From contig JABXIM010000001.1 of the NCBI GenBank assembly GCA_013373085.1, positions 1 to 41,926 on the forward strand: a DNA stretch of 41,926 nt, read 5' to 3'. Made by a program: the position numbers and the translations under genes. Source of the DNA: Oceanospirillaceae bacterium. Its GTDB lineage: Bacteria; Pseudomonadota; Gammaproteobacteria; Pseudomonadales; Balneatricaceae. Position 1 is the stretch's first letter, and each line of letters begins with the position of its first letter. Below, piece after piece: positions 12,649-20,086 of this stretch. The notes under the pieces were generated by a model. That model was not told the origin of the DNA, did no database searches, and saw nothing but the letters and a program-made list of their open reading frames with translations.

Positions 12649-13140
12649 TTATACCGGCATCCGCTCCAGAGTGCCCATTGGACACTGCTCGAGCATGTTA
12701 TCCAGCAGGCGGCCATCGGGCAGCTTCAGCCCGGGTGCAATCTCTGCCAGCGGCCAGAGTACGAACTCGCGCTCGCCGAGATAGGGATGAGGCACCTGCA
12801 GTCGTTCGCTGTCGATCGTCTGTGTACCGTACAGCAGGAGATCGAGATCCAGGGTCCTCGGCCCCCAACGCTCGAGCCGGACTCGCTGGTGGAGCCGCTC
12901 GAGGGCCTGAAGTTCATCCAGCAGCGCGTGGGCTTCCAGGTAGGTGTCGAGGCAGACGACGGCGTTGATGTAATCCGGCTGGCCCGGCGGACCCACCGGG
13001 TCGGAACGGTACAGGCTCGAATGCGCCACCTGTTCCGTCTCGGGCAGGTGAGCCAGTTCCCGCAGCGCGCGTTCGACCTGAGCCCGCGGATCGTCGAGGT
13101 TGCTGCCAAGGCCGATATAGCAGCGTATCAGCTCAGTCAT
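12649..13140 (-). CDS. folK: 2-amino-4-hydroxy-6-hydroxymethyldihydropteridine pyrophosphokinase
   Basis: A 163-residue enzyme that transfers pyrophosphate from ATP to 6-hydroxymethyl-dihydropterin in folate synthesis. It has the YIGLGSNLDDPRAQVERAL start, YRSDPVGPPGQPDYINAV, and the signature RWGPRTLDLDLLLYG. The start MTELIRC is chosen because it matches the family N-terminus and overlaps the pcnB stop by only 8 nt; the frame is open further upstream inside pcnB. Its neighbour panB uses a folate cofactor, and the order pcnB-folK-panB is conserved in Pseudomonas. Confidence 0.96.
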   Translation of the reverse strand: MTELIRCYIGLGSNLDDPRAQVERALRELAHLPETEQVAHSSLYRSDPVGPPGQPDYINAVVCLDTYLEAHALLDELQALERLHQRVRLERWGPRTLDLDLLLYGTQTIDSERLQVPHPYLGEREFVLWPLAEIAPGLKLPDGRLLDNMLEQCPMGTLERMPV

Positions 13141-14569
13141 TGCGGGGGCGGGTCCGCGGACGGCGGCGCCGGGAGCGGCGGGGCTTTTGGCTACCCGGCG
13201 CCACCTCCCCCTGGAGGGAGGCACGGTCGTCCTGGTTGGCGGCCTGGTAGTCGGTCCACCATTGGCTTAGCCCGCCGAGGTCCTCGCCGCTGCTTTCGCG
13301 CAGTAGCAGAAGATCATAGGCGGCGCGGAAACGTGGGTGCTCCATCAGCCGAGCGGCCCGGTGGCCCTGGCGCCGCGGCAACCGCAACTGCAGTTCCCAA
13401 ATTTCCCGTAGCGGGGTGGAGAAGCGACGCGGAATGGCGGTTTGGCGGACCTGGGCACCAATCACCTCGTTGGCGGCCTCGTGCAGCGCCGGTATCGCCG
13501 GCATGCCGTCCTGCATCAGCCTGTCCATGCGCAGTTGCATCGGGTACCAGAGCAGCGCAGCGAACAGGAACGCCGGGGTGACGCTCTTGTGCTGAGCCAG
13601 GCGTCGGTCGGTGTTACGCAGTGCCTTGAGGATCAACGCCTCGACCGGGTATCCCTGAGCCTGACCGGCTTTGATGGCGTGCTGAACCTGCGGGAACAGC
13701 GGTTCGAACAGGTCGTAAGCCTGCATCAGCTGAAAGGCACTGACACCATGGCCCGACTGCAGAAGCTTCAATACCTCGTCGAACATGCGTGCTGCGGCGA
13801 TATCGCGCAGCAGTGGTGCCAGCTCACGAATCGGCGCCGCTGTTGCCGGCTCGATCTCGAAGTCCAGCTTGGCGGCGAAGCGAACCGCGCGCAGCATCCG
13901 TACCGGGTCTTCGCGATAGCGGGCGTCGGGGTCTCCGATCATGCGGATGGTGCGACGGCCGATATCGGCAAAGCCGCCGACGAAGTCGTGGATGCTGTGA
14001 TCCTTGGGGCAATAATAGAGGGCGTTGATGGTGAAATCGCGCCGCAGAGCGTCCTCTTCCATCGAGCCATATACATTGTCTCGCAGAATCAGGCCGCTGG
14101 CGGCCTGACGACCATGCTCGCCGTTTTCGTTTTCGTCGACATTGTGGCCGGCGCGGAAAGTCGCGACTTCGATCACATCGCGCCCGAAGCGCACATGTAC
14201 CAGCTTGAAGCGCCGACCTATCAGGCGGGCGCGCCGAAACAGCTCTTCCGCCTGTTCCGGCAGAGCGGAGGTGGCAACGTCGAAGTCCTTGGGCTTCAAG
14301 CCCAGTAGCAGGTCGCGAATGCAGCCACCGACCAGATAAGCGTCATGGCCGTCGTCATTGAGACGGTGTACCACTTTGAGCGCATTATCGTCGAGGTGTT
14401 GGCGGGGAATCTGATGTTCGTCGCGGCTGATGATGCGAAGCTTGTTGCCGCCCTTGGTGGCGGCGGTGTCTGTTTCCGGCTTGGAGGCCATATGTCGTCT
14501 ACGCAGCAGTAGGATGGCGCCAATCAGAATAACCGCAATCACTGCGGCCAAGAACAGGCTCATATCCAT
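13133..14569 (-). CDS. pcnB: Poly(A) polymerase I
   Basis: A 478-residue nucleotidyltransferase that adds 3' poly(A) tails and so promotes RNA decay. The catalytic motif is YLVGGCIRDLLLGLKPKDFDVATSA at about residues 78-102, with two metal-binding aspartates in DFD; RRDFTINALYY and EDPVRMLRAVRFAAKL follow. The C-terminus is Arg/Lys-rich (RRSRRRRPRTRPR), as usual. Unusually, residues 3-24 form a strongly hydrophobic segment followed by RRRH, which looks like a membrane anchor. A start at M27 (MASKPETD) would remove it; neither start has a strong ribosome binding site. The leader just before the first ATG is A-rich and could bind Hfq/Crc. Confidence 0.94.
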   Translation of the reverse strand: MDMSLFLAAVIAVILIGAILLLRRRHMASKPETDTAATKGGNKLRIISRDEHQIPRQHLDDNALKVVHRLNDDGHDAYLVGGCIRDLLLGLKPKDFDVATSALPEQAEELFRRARLIGRRFKLVHVRFGRDVIEVATFRAGHNVDENENGEHGRQAASGLILRDNVYGSMEEDALRRDFTINALYYCPKDHSIHDFVGGFADIGRRTIRMIGDPDARYREDPVRMLRAVRFAAKLDFEIEPATAAPIRELAPLLRDIAAARMFDEVLKLLQSGHGVSAFQLMQAYDLFEPLFPQVQHAIKAGQAQGYPVEALILKALRNTDRRLAQHKSVTPAFLFAALLWYPMQLRMDRLMQDGMPAIPALHEAANEVIGAQVRQTAIPRRFSTPLREIWELQLRLPRRQGHRAARLMEHPRFRAAYDLLLLRESSGEDLGGLSQWWTDYQAANQDDRASLQGEVAPGSQKPRRSRRRRPRTRPRND

Positions 14570-14591: not shown

Positions 14592-14632
14592 CAGGCGTTG
14601 AAAGTCGCGCATCATAACACTGTTGCCTGTTC

Positions 14633-14638
14633 AGTATA
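14633..14638 (-). promoter_or_regulatory. Possible -10 box for pcnB
   Basis: TATACT on the minus strand about 64 nt before the pcnB start. The expected -35 position reads CAACTG, a poor match, so this is tentative. The gene may instead be read from the sRNA promoters upstream. Confidence 0.25.
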
Positions 14639-14639
14639 A

Positions 14640-14919
14640 GTAGGCAGGATTTATGCAGTTGAGCGACGATGGGGCCAGAATAATGGGGGGAAAGGAGCGG
14701 GTTAGCTGATCGTCGCCGTTGGAGTCGCGCCTGTTTGTTATTTTTATTCAGACGCTCATCCGGTGAATCTCGGGTTTGGGGACCATCGTGACATCGGTCG
14801 ACGATCAGCTACAGGCCTCGTTGTTATTTTTATTCGAGGCGGAGACTCTGCGACGCGGGCCGGTTGTTATTTTTATTGCTGGCCTGCCGCGCGGTCTTAT
14901 TGTTTGAGTTGTTGTTCGG
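14640..14919 (-). ncRNA. CrcZ-like small RNA, copy A (next to pcnB)
   Basis: Non-coding minus-strand transcript inferred from position and sequence. In Pseudomonas crcZ lies between cbrB and pcnB, as here. CrcZ-type RNAs carry several A-rich CA motifs that bind Hfq (with Crc) and free repressed mRNAs. Copy A has four such blocks on the minus strand: 14894-14916 (AACAACAACTCAAACAATAA), 14862-14881, 14819-14835 (AATAAAAATAACAAC) and 14730-14750. Its 5' end is placed about 12 nt after the sigma54 promoter at 14930-14945. The 3' end is approximate; I see no clear terminator. It aligns over most of its length with copy B. Confidence 0.78.
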
Positions 14920-14929
14920 GCGTTATAAA

Positions 14930-14945
14930 AGCAGGCTTCGTGCCA
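14930..14945 (-). promoter_or_regulatory. Sigma54 (-24/-12) promoter of sRNA copy A
   Basis: Minus strand reads TGGCACGAAGCCTGCT, with the invariant GG and GC separated by ten bases as sigma54 requires; consensus is TGGCAC-N5-TTGCW. Transcription would start near 14919, just before the A-rich 5' block. The presence of a sigma54 activator gene (cbrB) upstream supports it. Confidence 0.82.
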
Positions 14946-14987
14946 ATTATCTTAACTTATTGATAATTAATAGAAATAAATGTTGTT

Positions 14988-15068
14988 GTTACCGCTTGTT
15001 ACCCTGCGTGCGGATGGTGGGTGTTACCGATGGGAACGGTCGGGTAGCACTATGTGTGTGTCGGTAAC
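14988..15068 (-). promoter_or_regulatory. Upstream activator sites for copy A (probable CbrB binding)
   Basis: GTTACC occurs at 14988-14993, 14998-15003 and 15023-15028, GGGAAC at 15032-15037 and GGTAAC at 15063-15068. The core GTTACC-N3-GGGAAC is a near dyad lying about 78 bp above the sigma54 promoter. The same arrangement recurs above copy B. Assignment to CbrB is inference from gene context. Confidence 0.65.
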
Positions 15069-15309
15069 AGAACAGCGGGATGCAAAAAAATGGCTGGTTG
15101 AGAACGGGCGCTGTTGGTTTGGGCAAAACGCAGTCGCGCACGCAGTGACGGATATCGCGCCGGGGGCGTTGCGGATCAGTGGCATCGCGGAACCCGCCAT
15201 GTTGATCGCATTGCAGAACGATGGATTGGATCGGCGCGATCATTGCGTTGTAACTCGGTGATCCGTCTCCCAGGCTGCGCCTAACGCCTCTAAGCGATTG
15301 ACCGGAAGG

Positions 15310-15576
15310 CTGGTTGTGATGAAGGAGAAACGGTGAAAAAGAGGAGGGACGGGTGGCTGACCACTGATCCGGAATAACGTGACTGCCTGTTTGTTATTTT
15401 TGTTCAGGCCTTCGGGTTTGGGGACCATCGTGACACCGCTCAGCGGTCAGCACAGGCCTCACTTGTTATTTTTGTTAGAGGCGGATTACGCATCCGGCCG
15501 CACCGTTTTTATTTTTATTGCTGGTGGGCAGGAGGTAGTGTCTTGTTGTTGTTCTTGCTTCTTGTTTTTCTTGTTA
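15310..15576 (-). ncRNA. crcZ: CrcZ-like small RNA, copy B (next to cbrB)
   Basis: Second CrcZ-like minus-strand RNA, directly after cbrB. The predicted 5' end (near 15576) begins AACAAGAAAAACAAGAAGC, an extended A-rich block at 15541-15576. Further blocks lie at 15503-15523 (AATAAAAATAAAAAC), 15460-15478 (AACAAAAATAACAAG) and 15386-15407. The segment 15413-15437 is nearly identical to 14771-14796 of copy A. A T5 run on the minus strand at 15336-15340, preceded by a small GTGG/CCAC stem (15353-15364), may mark the 3' end, but this is weak. Since it is immediately downstream of cbrB, this copy has the position of the Pseudomonas gene. Confidence 0.8.
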
Positions 15577-15586
15577 CTTAATAGAG

Positions 15587-15602
15587 TGCAGTCATTGTGC
15601 CA
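15587..15602 (-). promoter_or_regulatory. Sigma54 (-24/-12) promoter of sRNA copy B
   Basis: Minus strand reads TGGCACAATGACTGCA: perfect TGGCAC, ten bases between GG and GC, and CTGCA in place of TTGCA. It lies 137 nt after the cbrB stop and just above the A-rich 5' block of copy B. Confidence 0.85.
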
Positions 15603-15652
15603 CTGTCTATAAGCTATTGTTTTTAATATATTTATACTTTTGCTGCTGATCT

Positions 15653-15725
15653 GTTACCGCTGAAAAGGCGACTTTCTGTTACCCCTGGGAACGTTACCGC
15701 GCGCATTGCTGGGTGCTTAGGTAAC
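15653..15725 (-). promoter_or_regulatory. Upstream activator sites for copy B (probable CbrB binding)
   Basis: GTTACC at 15653-15658, 15678-15683 and 15693-15698, GGGAAC at 15687-15692 and GGTAAC at 15720-15725. The core GTTACC-N3-GGGAAC (15678-15692) lies about 76 bp above the promoter, matching copy A. The outermost site ends 14 nt from the cbrB stop codon. Confidence 0.68.
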
Positions 15726-15738
15726 ACCTGCCTGCCGT

Positions 15739-17142
<1,404 letters not shown>

Positions 17143-17182
17143 TCGGTTCGACCTTGTTTTCTGCAAACGGAACCCGCCGGTG

Positions 17183-20086
17183 TCAAAGCTGCGACATCGG
17201 AAGTCCAGGTAAGGTGATTACCACTAGAGTGCCTTTATTCTGTTTCTTGTTGGCTGGGCTTATGATTTCGATATTACCATAGTGCTCTTCGATAATATTG
17301 TAGACGAGCGGTAAACCCAAGCCGGTACCCTTGCCCGGATCCTTGGTGGTGAAGAACGGCTCGAACAGGCGGTCCTGCAATTCCGGTGGAATGCCCGAGC
17401 CTTCATCCTGGACCCGGATGATGACCTTTTCATCCTCCTGCTCCGCGCTAACGCTGATCAGTCCCTGGTCGGGCGAGGCGTCGCAGGCGTTGTTCAGCAG
17501 ATTGATGAATATCTGCAGCAATTGCTGCGGGTCGCCCATGACCTGCAGCTCCGGCGGCACCTCGTTGCGGTATCGGGGATTGCGGCCGCGGCTGTCGAGC
17601 GAAACCAGGTGTATCGCCTCGGCGATGCAGTCGTGCAGCGGCATCGGTTCGTGCTGGGCGCTGTTATCCTGGCGGCCGGCGTGGGCGAAGCGCACCAGAG
17701 ACTGAACGATGCGGGTGATGCGTTTGGTCTGATCGAGGATCTGCACGCCGGTTTCGAGCACCGGCTCTTCGTCGGACTCCAGTTTCAGGTTTTGCGCCAG
17801 GCAGGCGATGCCGGTGACCGGATTGCCAATCTCGTGAGCGACGCCGGCGGCGAAGCGGCCGATCGATGCCAGGCGTTCGTTGTGGGCTAGCTTGTCGGCC
17901 AGCAGCAGCGTTTCGGTTTCGTCCTCGAGCAGGATCACCATGCCGGCGTGGGAGGCCTCCTCGCTGAGCTCGGCCTTGTGCAGGCTGAACCAGCGCGGGT
18001 GGCCCTTGAGTTCCAGCCGATGGCTGGGCTGATGGGAAGCGCTGCCCTCGGCAAACTCGGTCAGCAGTTGCCCCCAGGGGGCCGGCAGCGACGTCGGGCG
18101 CCAGTTCAGGACATCGTCTGCGCGTAGCCCGGTGTAGTGTTCGATTTCTGCGTTCCAGAACAGAATGCGGCCGTCGCTGTCCAGCGTGCAGACGCCGACG
18201 GGCAGTTTCTGCAGCGTCAGTCGATGGTAACGCCGCAGCTCGTCGAGCTCGGCGGCCAGGCCACCGAGACGCCGGTGATACTGTTCGAGCTGGGACTCCA
18301 GCAGGTGGACATCGCGGGCGCGGAACCCCTCGATGGTATCCTGGCGTTCCAGCGGTTCCAGCAGCGTGGCGGCCTCGACCGGCCCGAGCAGCCCCGACAG
18401 GTGCTGCTCGAGCTGGGTGCGCATCCGCAGCAGGTCCAGCGGCGACAGCACCTCGTGGCTGATACCGAGCTGTGCCAGTACGGCCTGTAGTTCCCGGTGG
18501 GCGGTTTCGGCACCGAGCCGGGGCCGCAGCAGTGCTTCGAAGTCCTCGACACGGGTGGCGTTCAGACGCACGCCAACCGGTTGCTGCATCACGTTGAGCA
18601 TGCAGGCGTCACCGGCGCGTCTTTCCTCCTCGGTTGTCGGGAACAGACGTGATCCGAGGATCATCATGATGCAGTTGAGCAGCAGTGACAGCACCGCCGG
18701 CCCGTGCCAGCTGTCGGAAAACAGGTTGAAATTCTGCTGTCGCAACTGGTCGTCGAAGTACATCGTCAGCTGCCAGGTGCCGATGCCGCTGCACAGTCCC
18801 AGCACGAACCCCCAGCGGTTGATTCCGGCCCAGAACAGCGTCGCCAGCAGGCCCGGCAGAAAGTGCAGAAACGAGACGAAGGACAGCAGGCCGATCAGGT
18901 AGAGGGCGTCCGGCCGGTTGAGCAGGGTGTAGCAGAGGTAGCTGCCGGAGATCAGCACCAGGATCAGGATACGCCGCAGCCACAGCAGCCAGTTGTAAAA
19001 GCGCACATTATCGGGCACCTGGGTGATGGGCAGCAGCAGGTGGTTCTGCAGCATCGATGCCATCGATACCGTCGCCACGATAATGATGCCGCTGGCGGCC
19101 GACAGGCCGCCGATGAACGCCAGCAGCGTCAGCACGTTCGATTGCTGGGCGATGCCGATGTGCAGCACGAAGAAGTCGCGTGAACCGGCGAAATCCAGCT
19201 TCAGCGCCGCCCATACGATCGGGGGGACCGCAAGCGCCAGCAACAGCAGGTAGAAGGGCATCATCCAGGACGCCTTCTGCAGGCTGAGCACCGAGGAATT
19301 TTCGGTGAACGCGAGGTGGAACATGTGCGGCATCAGAATGGCACTGGCGAAAAAGGCCAGCAGCAGGGTATGCCAGTTGTCGCTGTCCGGCAGTTGCTGC
19401 ACCAGGTCCAGCGCGTTCGGGTTTGCTGCAAGCCACTCCTGCAGTCCGGTCGGCCCGCCGAAGATGACGAAGACGGCATACAGGGCGATCGCCAGCAGCA
19501 CCAGCACCTTGACCGCGGACTCCACGGCCATTGCCACCACGAGGCCGGTATTGCGGTTGCGCAGCGAGGCGTGACGTGCGCCGAAGAGAATGGCGAACAG
19601 CGCCATCACGGCGCAGAACAGGGCTGCCAGCAGCTTGCGTGGCGCTTCTGGGCTCAGCAGATGGAGGGTATCGGCCACCGCTTGGATCTGAATGGCGATC
19701 AGGGGCAGCGTCGCCGCGACCACCAGGGCCGATGTCAGGGCACCGATCGGGCCGCTGCGAAAGCGAAAGGCGAAAAGGTCGGCAAGCGAACTGAGCTGGT
19801 GGGTGCGGGTGATGCGCAGGATCGGCACCATGATCGCCGGCGCCAGCATGAAGGCGAAGCTGGCGCCGAGGTAGGACGACATGTAGGCCATGCCGGCGTC
19901 GAGGATGATGCCGAACACGCCATAGAAGGTCCAGGCGCTGGCGAAGACGCCCAGCGACATGGTGTGCACCAGCGGATGATTGACCAGGCGGCGCGGCAGC
20001 AGGCCGCGTTCGGTCATCCAGGCGGTACCGAACAGGCACAGCAGGTAGAAAATGCCGGCAGCGAAGAGTCCCTGAGCGCTAAACAT
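17183..20086 (-). CDS. cbrA: Sensor histidine kinase CbrA with transporter-like domain
   Basis: A 967-residue membrane sensor kinase. Residues 1 to about 500 contain around a dozen hydrophobic helices of the sodium/solute symporter (SLC5) type. A linker follows, then a PAS domain at about 610-730 ([23 protein letters not shown]). The HisKA domain has the phospho-accepting histidine near 750 ([14 protein letters not shown]). The HATPase domain has its N box near 863 ([11 protein letters not shown]) and G boxes DEGSGIP and [12 protein letters not shown]. It phosphorylates CbrB. Its start overlaps the preceding small gene by 8 nt, so it is probably translationally coupled to it; cbrB follows after 40 nt. 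Confidence 0.96.

Follow-up and report, generated by a model that had tools for sequence, protein, structure and literature searches.

Results

Two CrcZ-Type RNA Units in Tandem Between cbrB and pcnB

The 1.17 kb between cbrB and pcnB contains two minus-strand RNA units and, judging from the sequence, both copies are probably CbrB-activated sponge RNAs for Hfq and Crc that belong to one family and have their own promoters. The gene order on the minus strand is cbrA-cbrB-[RNA B]-[RNA A]-pcnB (Table 1), with both copies in the place of a CrcZ-type RNA gene, between cbrB and pcnB. A preliminary description of the locus had called the units CrcZ-type and both apparently CbrB-activated, in agreement with what we found for the locus, the sigma-54-type promoters, the CbrB-type sites and the A-blocks; the strand, coordinates, block order and offset that it gave for the two segments were correct on re-examination.

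The A-block pattern AAYAAAAATAAMAA, with at most one mismatch, matches six times in the window (the whole stretch of DNA analysed, 41,926 bp) against 0.02 matches expected, and all six matches fall within the RNA units, three in copy A and three in copy B. The conserved spacer described earlier as common to both copies was found again as a 22-nt core that occurs twice in the window with up to three mismatches (0.00 expected), and the two segments do align with each other, as a direct-repeat search gave a 40-nt stretch within the closing stem that is 88% identical between the copies at a distance of 642 nt. The offset between copy A and copy B ranges from 642 to 657 nt (642 for the core, 651 for the ends of the model matches, 657 for the promoter), and alignment of the two 400-nt units gave 56% identity over the aligned positions.

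Read along the minus strand, each unit comprises TGTTAC and GTAACA sites, an IHF-like site, a GG-N10-GC promoter and a 5′ A-rich tract, followed downstream by H1 and H2, two hairpins whose loops each hold an A-block, and by a long closing stem that encloses a small hairpin and H3, which has an A-block in its loop as well. A pyrimidine-rich stretch comes after each closing stem; a terminator scan of the locus found no canonical terminator behind copy A or copy B, and the scan of the cbrB-pcnB locus for sigma-70 promoters and terminators gave nothing beyond chance. By eye, pcnB may have a separate promoter at 14611-14639.

An assembly artefact behind the tandem pair was ruled out, because the copies differ and the pair is present in 7/7 genomes of the genus, two of which (G001 and G002) are single-contig.

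Table 1. Features of the cbrA-pcnB locus, in the order in which they are read on the minus strand.
Feature	Position	Strand	Remarks
cbrA, sensor kinase, transporter-like N-terminal part	17183..20086	minus	967 aa
cbrB, sigma-54-type response regulator	15739..17166	minus	475 aa counting from listed start
Copy B CbrB-type sites: TGTTAC 15721-15726; GTAACA 15677-15682, 15652-15657	15652..15726	minus	sequence and spacing
Copy B IHF-like site	15610..15622	minus	one mismatch to WATCAANNNNTTR; by eye
Copy B sigma-54-type promoter TGGCACAATGACTGC	15588..15602	minus	sequence pattern
RNA B (cbrB-proximal)	15350..15577	minus	5′ end placed from promoter; 3′ end putative
Copy B 5′ A-rich tracts	15541..15576	minus	two runs of A-R-N triplets
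Copy B A-block in H1 (CACC/GGTG)	15506..15519	minus	
Copy B H2 (GCCTC/GAGGC)	15456..15482	minus	loop A-block 15463-15476
Copy B closing stem	15356..15451	minus	arms 15440-15451 and 15356-15367
Copy B conserved core GTGTCACGATGGTCCCCAAACC	15415..15436	minus	predicted GGU-CCCCAA-ACC hairpin
Copy B H3	15385..15409	minus	loop A-block 15391-15404
Copy A CbrB-type sites: TGTTAC 15064-15069; GTAACA 15022-15027, 14997-15002, 14987-14992	14987..15069	minus	
Copy A IHF-like site	14953..14965	minus	perfect to WATCAANNNNTTR; by eye
Copy A sigma-54-type promoter TGGCACGAAGCCTGC	14931..14945	minus	sequence pattern
RNA A (pcnB-proximal)	14700..14920	minus	5′ end predicted; 3′ end putative
Copy A 5′ A-rich tract	14894..14916	minus	weak: without a run of four strict A-R-N triplets
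Copy A A-block in H1 (GGCC/GGCC)	14864..14877	minus	
Copy A H2 (GCCTCG/CGAGGC)	14815..14840	minus	A-block 14821-14834
Copy A closing stem	14703..14811	minus	arms 14799-14811 and 14703-14715, 13/13 paired
Copy A conserved core	14773..14794	minus	1 mismatch vs copy B
Copy A H3 (GCGTCTG/CAGGCGC)	14727..14755	minus	A-block 14735-14748
Candidate pcnB promoter TTATAC-N17-TATGAT	14611..14639	minus	by eye; similar in same-genus gaps compared; sigma-70 scan gave no flag
pcnB, poly(A) polymerase	13133..14569	minus	TIGR01942 552 bits, cut-off 306

Each Unit Carries a Sigma-54-Type Promoter and CbrB-Type Sites

A sigma-54-type promoter with CbrB subsites upstream, recognised from sequence alone and absent from the preliminary description, precedes each of the two copies. 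The IHF-like sites of copies A and B were scored against WATCAANNNNTTR, which we take to be the IHF consensus. Exact TGTTAC and exact GTAACA were each found in the expected slots in 19/19 units of the genus, and among 39 fetched units of other genera in 26 and 38, respectively, compared to 0.6% (TGTTAC) and 1.4% (GTAACA) of shuffled upstreams. The IHF-like site (at most one mismatch) was found in 33/39 units of other genera, in 7% of shuffled upstreams and in 10/19 genus units, and is therefore not general in the genus. These upstream statistics cover 58 fetched units out of more than 100 family matches, leaving out G028 (no promoter position) and the G013 copy on contig C19.

The GG-N10-GC pattern is weak by itself, with four matches in the window where 0.79 are expected and as many in 1/100 shuffles. 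In each unit, promoter and CbrB-type sites stand at a near-fixed distance, and the promoter-plus-A-tract pattern gave at least one unit in 51 of the 62 cbrB-pcnB gaps found across the order and none in 1240 shuffled gaps. TGTTAC and GTAACA are the CbrB subsites published for P. putida, in which IHF is placed between the CbrB sites and the promoter of crcZ and crcY (excerpt of PMC6296734).

Hairpins Around the A-Blocks, a Covarying Closing Stem and a Conserved Core

Several A-R-N stretches of the Hfq type are present in both copies; strict runs of at least four A-R-N triplets number five in copy B (two of them in the 5′ tract) and three in copy A. Of the A-rich blocks reported earlier for each copy, the 5′ one of copy A is the weak one. 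The predicted fold of copy A has a z-score of -3.6 (0/200 shuffles as good) and that of copy B a z-score of -2.6 (4/200 shuffles as good).

From 28 copies in a plain MAFFT alignment, RNAalifold predicted a closing stem of nine pairs, eight of which are changed on both sides at least once; from this alignment only the closing stem was obtained and H1-H3 were not recovered, and on the 12 copies from outside the genus H2 and the closing stem were predicted. In the MAFFT alignments H2 and H3 are out of register between lineages, so we limited the covariance model R1, built from the 28 copies with those of the window included, to H1, H2 and the closing stem, and measured the hairpins also copy by copy. 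Among hairpins flanking A-blocks in the 28 copies, 64/83 scored at least 8, compared to 20% with shuffled flanks; shuffled flanks served as the control, an arm-swap comparison being unfair to stems that had been picked for their pairing. Furthermore, 24 of the 31 invariant columns of the 28-copy alignment lie inside A-blocks. The spacers had been described as diverged, which had suggested selection on the Hfq-binding parts. This picture is incomplete: the stems flanking the A-blocks are conserved and the closing stem covaries, so that the spacers are not subject to mere drift and selection reaches beyond the Hfq blocks.

The core GTGTCACGATGGTCCCCAAACC is exact in copy B and in both unlinked copies of the source genome, and one base off in copy A. 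It has been kept in all four despite divergence elsewhere, which could be explained by gene conversion or by a second function. The most conserved stretch of the unit is outside the A-blocks, a fact that a pure sponge leaves unexplained. The copies might be CbrB-activated base-pairing RNAs, in which the core acts on mRNAs and the A-blocks merely recruit Hfq as a chaperone. The identity of the 40-nt stretch that contains the core, together with its exact conservation in copy B and the unlinked copies, speaks for such RNAs, but in five genomes of the genus the first, B-type copy lacks the core at up to five mismatches, and by eye an alternative hairpin is possible at the same position; it was not found, at up to four mismatches, in the scanned loci of other genera; and the A-blocks hold most of the invariant columns. 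On balance we regard base pairing through the core as an unlikely account of the two copies.

A Covariance Model From Other Genera Recovers Both Copies

A second model, R2, was made from 12 copies that belong to other genera, with none from the source genus. Its only matches in the window up to E 1 are those at 15354-15526 (E 2.3e-17, copy B) and at 14703-14884 (E 3.8e-16, copy A). On 19 further loci R2 recovered all 17 other known copies of the genus at E 6e-9 or better, together with two weak places in L130, and it gave no match in the three loci where the Rfam CrcZ model exceeds its cut-off.

The comparison with the Rfam CrcZ model (RF01675), suggested in the preliminary description, went against membership: no match reached the curated cut-off in the window, copy B scoring 20.1 bits against a cut-off of 95 and copy A giving nothing up to E 5. 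In the control, run on 20 sources, the same model gave 350 for L008, 307 for L110 and 272 for L013, and none in the other 17. We therefore call the units CrcZ-type by their locus, promoter and A-blocks, and not members of the Rfam family. Rfam matches to sR2 and WT1-AS_5 were far below cut-off and were regarded as chance.

The Duplication Dates Back at Least to the Origin of the Genus

The search of related genomes proposed earlier was positive, as two to three tandem copies were found in 7/7 genomes of the genus: at least two copies lie between cbrB and pcnB in each, and three in G005. A local duplication did make the pair, as had been supposed, but the pair is no local oddity, since all seven genomes share it. 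R1 matches number four in the source genome, five in G005 and two in each of the other five. The two unlinked copies of the source genome (L158, G000:C42:29000-33500, and L159, G000:C58:1-4000) each have CbrB-type sites and a sigma-54-type promoter, without cbrB alongside. Contig C6 of G005, the nearest relative, carries a second pair of copies (L209:2145 and L209:3669, about 1.5 kb apart); the gene downstream of this pair is, by eye, the one that neighbours the C58 copy of the source genome.

Across the family, 97/116 genomes have an R1 match at E 0.001 or better, 80 of the 97 with a single match (five of these weak, E 1e-5 to 8e-4), and two or more matches were found in 17/116. Among the 62 cbrB loci of the order, 11 have two or more units by pattern, and 12 once the second copy of G004 is counted, which the promoter-plus-block pattern missed and the model recovered. 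Outside the genus, tandem copies occur in the same family in G011, G026 and G129, in two genera (by model and pattern), and in two other families in G046 (by pattern only) and G040 (by pattern and weak R1 matches). No unit was found by pattern in 11/62 cbrB loci; two of these (L118 and L007) break off shortly behind cbrB, in two (L123 and L010) pcnB was not found, and two (L109 and L015) show candidate promoters once the rule is relaxed. In genus g8 the cbrB-pcnB gap is 223 nt in G013 (L107) and 164 nt in G027 (L105), with no unit there and three R1 matches elsewhere in each genome; a third genome of that genus, G078, has one unit in the gap.

In an unrooted tree of the 28 copies (support as SH-aLRT/bootstrap), the copies of the genus are split from those of two other genera (98.9/99). 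The seven first (B-type) copies of the genus group together (90.2/85), as do, with modest support, the seven last (A-type) copies (86/61), which makes the duplication at least as old as the genus. A third type comprises the middle copy of G005, the C42 and C58 copies and the C6 pair of G005 (99.9/100) and is, on this tree, the type located at new loci; the branching among the three types has a support of 41.8/33. In G011 and in G026/G129 the duplication took place separately from that of the genus.

Only one copy might be active and the other a decaying relic of the duplication, given that identity between the units is no more than 56% and that most genomes of the family with any match have just one. 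We consider this very unlikely, as both units are present in all seven genomes of the genus, CbrB-type sites of both kinds stand before all its 19 units, and the paired stems and A-blocks have been kept in both copies. A single long transcript without separate RNAs, through read-through from cbrB or as a leader of pcnB, would fit the read-through from cbrB into crcZ reported in P. putida and A. vinelandii (excerpts of PMC8871633 and PMC6292655) and the failure to find a canonical terminator at the locus, but it is highly improbable, considering the promoter and sites at a near-fixed distance in each unit, the promoter units kept by the C42 and C58 copies away from cbrB, and the possible promoter of pcnB itself.

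CbrA, CbrB, Hfq and Crc of the Source Genome

Over residues 14-960, CbrA shares 48% identity with the ORF upstream of cbrB in Pseudomonas fildesensis, and its residues 8-577 match PDB 10ed ("histidine kinase") at E 4e-149; its Pfam domains are HisKA, HATPase and PAS, with no Pfam transporter family at E 0.001. CbrB has the Pfam domains Response_reg and Sigma54_activat, and it has matches at E 6e-129 or better in 49/57 genomes (its own included), the next being at 8e-97 or worse. Among the matches listed, named relatives are 59-63% identical to CbrB (three Pseudomonadaceae 61-62%, Gilvimarinus up to 63%, Halomonadaceae 59%), with few true CbrB loci among the 80 matches listed; the identity to CbrB of G055, whose locus carries Rfam CrcZ, is 65%. 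The CbrB tree separates the source family from Pseudomonadaceae, Halomonadaceae and Cellvibrionaceae. Pseudomonas as the host was ruled out by the CbrB identity and the CbrB tree.

The source genome has one match for hfq (L166:1483-1722), and 69/75 aligned residues of its product are identical to P. aeruginosa Hfq. Position 25, a distal-face Tyr in P. aeruginosa, is Phe here, which we judge to be a mild change; P. aeruginosa Hfq with Asp at this position is defective in CrcZ binding (excerpt of PMC4063720). The Crc candidate, of 258 aa, is encoded between rph and pyrE (neighbours identified by eye) and matches Crc 4jg3 at E 4e-77 and the nuclease 2jc5 at E 2e-66. At the active-site positions where 2jc5 has E, D, N and D, which we take to be catalytic, the candidate has N, T, H and E, and 4jg3 has D, S, Y and Q. 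Its top match, 2myi, is labelled exodeoxyribonuclease III and, we presume, may be a Crc; the NCBIfam label of the candidate is likewise exodeoxyribonuclease III. On these comparisons the candidate is closer to Crc than to the nucleases, with, by sequence, an exonuclease-III fold in which the nuclease active-site residues are replaced, and Hfq and Crc are encoded in the same genome. Among the genomes of the family, 109/116 have one Crc match each at E 1e-20 or better.

An RNA Without CbrB in Genus g3, and a Weakly Matching Element in Genus g2

The genomes of genus g3 are of 1.5-3.4 Mb, and no match at the CbrB level was found in the 3/3 tested. In G023 the order is, by eye, gluQ, then the RNA directly, then pcnB; pcnB follows the RNA in 5/6 genomes and in the sixth the contig ends there. 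The sequences upstream of the RNA (L227, L228, L231-L234) contain neither a sigma-54 element nor an exact CbrB site in 6/6 genomes, and in all six they contain TTGAA[ACT] and TATATT or TATAGT, 17 nt apart, at a near-constant position before the RNA. Crc has been kept in 6/6. The simplest reading is that the g3 RNA would be a constitutive orphan RNA behind a sigma-70-type promoter.

In genus g2, two A-blocks in possible hairpins are followed by a strong terminator-like stem and a T run (L229:1765-1866 and L230:1791-1895). This element is a weak R1 match (E 3e-5 and 1e-5), with no pcnB in the fetched stretch.

Discussion

When preferred carbon is low, CbrA-CbrB would activate both RNAs via their CbrB/sigma-54 promoters. 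Each RNA, of a predicted 220-260 nt or so, would offer three loop A-blocks and an A-rich tract at the 5′ end, the latter long in copy B and weak in copy A; these would hold the distal face of Hfq together with Crc, and this titration would lift repression from mRNAs for less preferred substrates. P. aeruginosa CrcZ, with six A-rich stretches, binds the distal face of Hfq (excerpt of PMC4063720). For the two copies described here we infer transcription, CbrB binding, Hfq/Crc binding and an effect on catabolite repression. The tandem duplication would have raised the gene dose of the sponge, and the third copy type would later have settled at new loci.

As a more speculative extension, possible but rather doubtful, the array could be a seedbed of new sponge genes, with duplication, dispersal of the third type and a division of labour in which copy B is basal and copy A inducible. 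Copy B, next to cbrB and with the longer 5′ A-rich part, might then be fed also by read-through, and the conserved non-A hairpin might give a second activity to some copies.

The RNA class is already known; what is new to us is its arrangement in tandem and in multiple copies, its distinct structure and the range of hosts. None of the papers among the matches listed in our literature search dealt with crcZ in tandem or with Crc-type RNAs from outside Pseudomonadaceae, which is not proof of novelty. CbrAB has been called exclusive to Pseudomonadaceae in a research paper (PMC6296734) and a review (PMC8871633), both seen as excerpts, and a marine metatranscriptome reports cbrA and cbrB transcripts, with neither the hosts nor any RNA named in the excerpt (PMC5073097). 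The cbrA-cbrB-RNA-pcnB module does occur outside Pseudomonadaceae, where its RNA goes unrecognised by Rfam, and such RNAs, known from Pseudomonas and Azotobacter, form repeated arrays here in a different branch. With 0 to 5 matches per genome, these bacteria offer a natural dosage series for how much sponge RNA titrates Hfq/Crc, and natural experiments in the tandem arrays with unlinked offshoots and in a CbrB-less clade that keeps the RNA behind an apparently constitutive promoter.

The two copies resemble CrcZ (RF01675) of Pseudomonas and Azotobacter in their position between cbrB and pcnB, in the sigma-54-type promoter with CbrB-type sites, in the several A-rich stretches and in the presence of crc and hfq in the genome. 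They differ from it in their own hairpin architecture, in escaping the Rfam model, in their occurrence as two or three in tandem, and in length, since CrcZ of P. aeruginosa has 407 nt (excerpt of PMC4063720) and the predicted RNAs are shorter. Two related small RNA genes in tandem are also found in prrF1-prrF2 of P. aeruginosa, which, in the excerpts available, are iron-regulated and repress iron-protein mRNAs, and are of another family and function. The paralogues CrcY and CrcX lie apart from crcZ, whereas the extra copy here adjoins its partner and a further two lie at unlinked loci. With CrcY/CrcX of P. putida, A. vinelandii and P. syringae the present RNAs share the presence of several Crc-type RNAs controlled by a common activator, and with RsmX/Y/Z under GacA the sequestration of an RNA-binding protein by multiple RNAs that answer to a single response regulator (both from an excerpt of PMC8871633); the protein target of RsmX/Y/Z is a different one.
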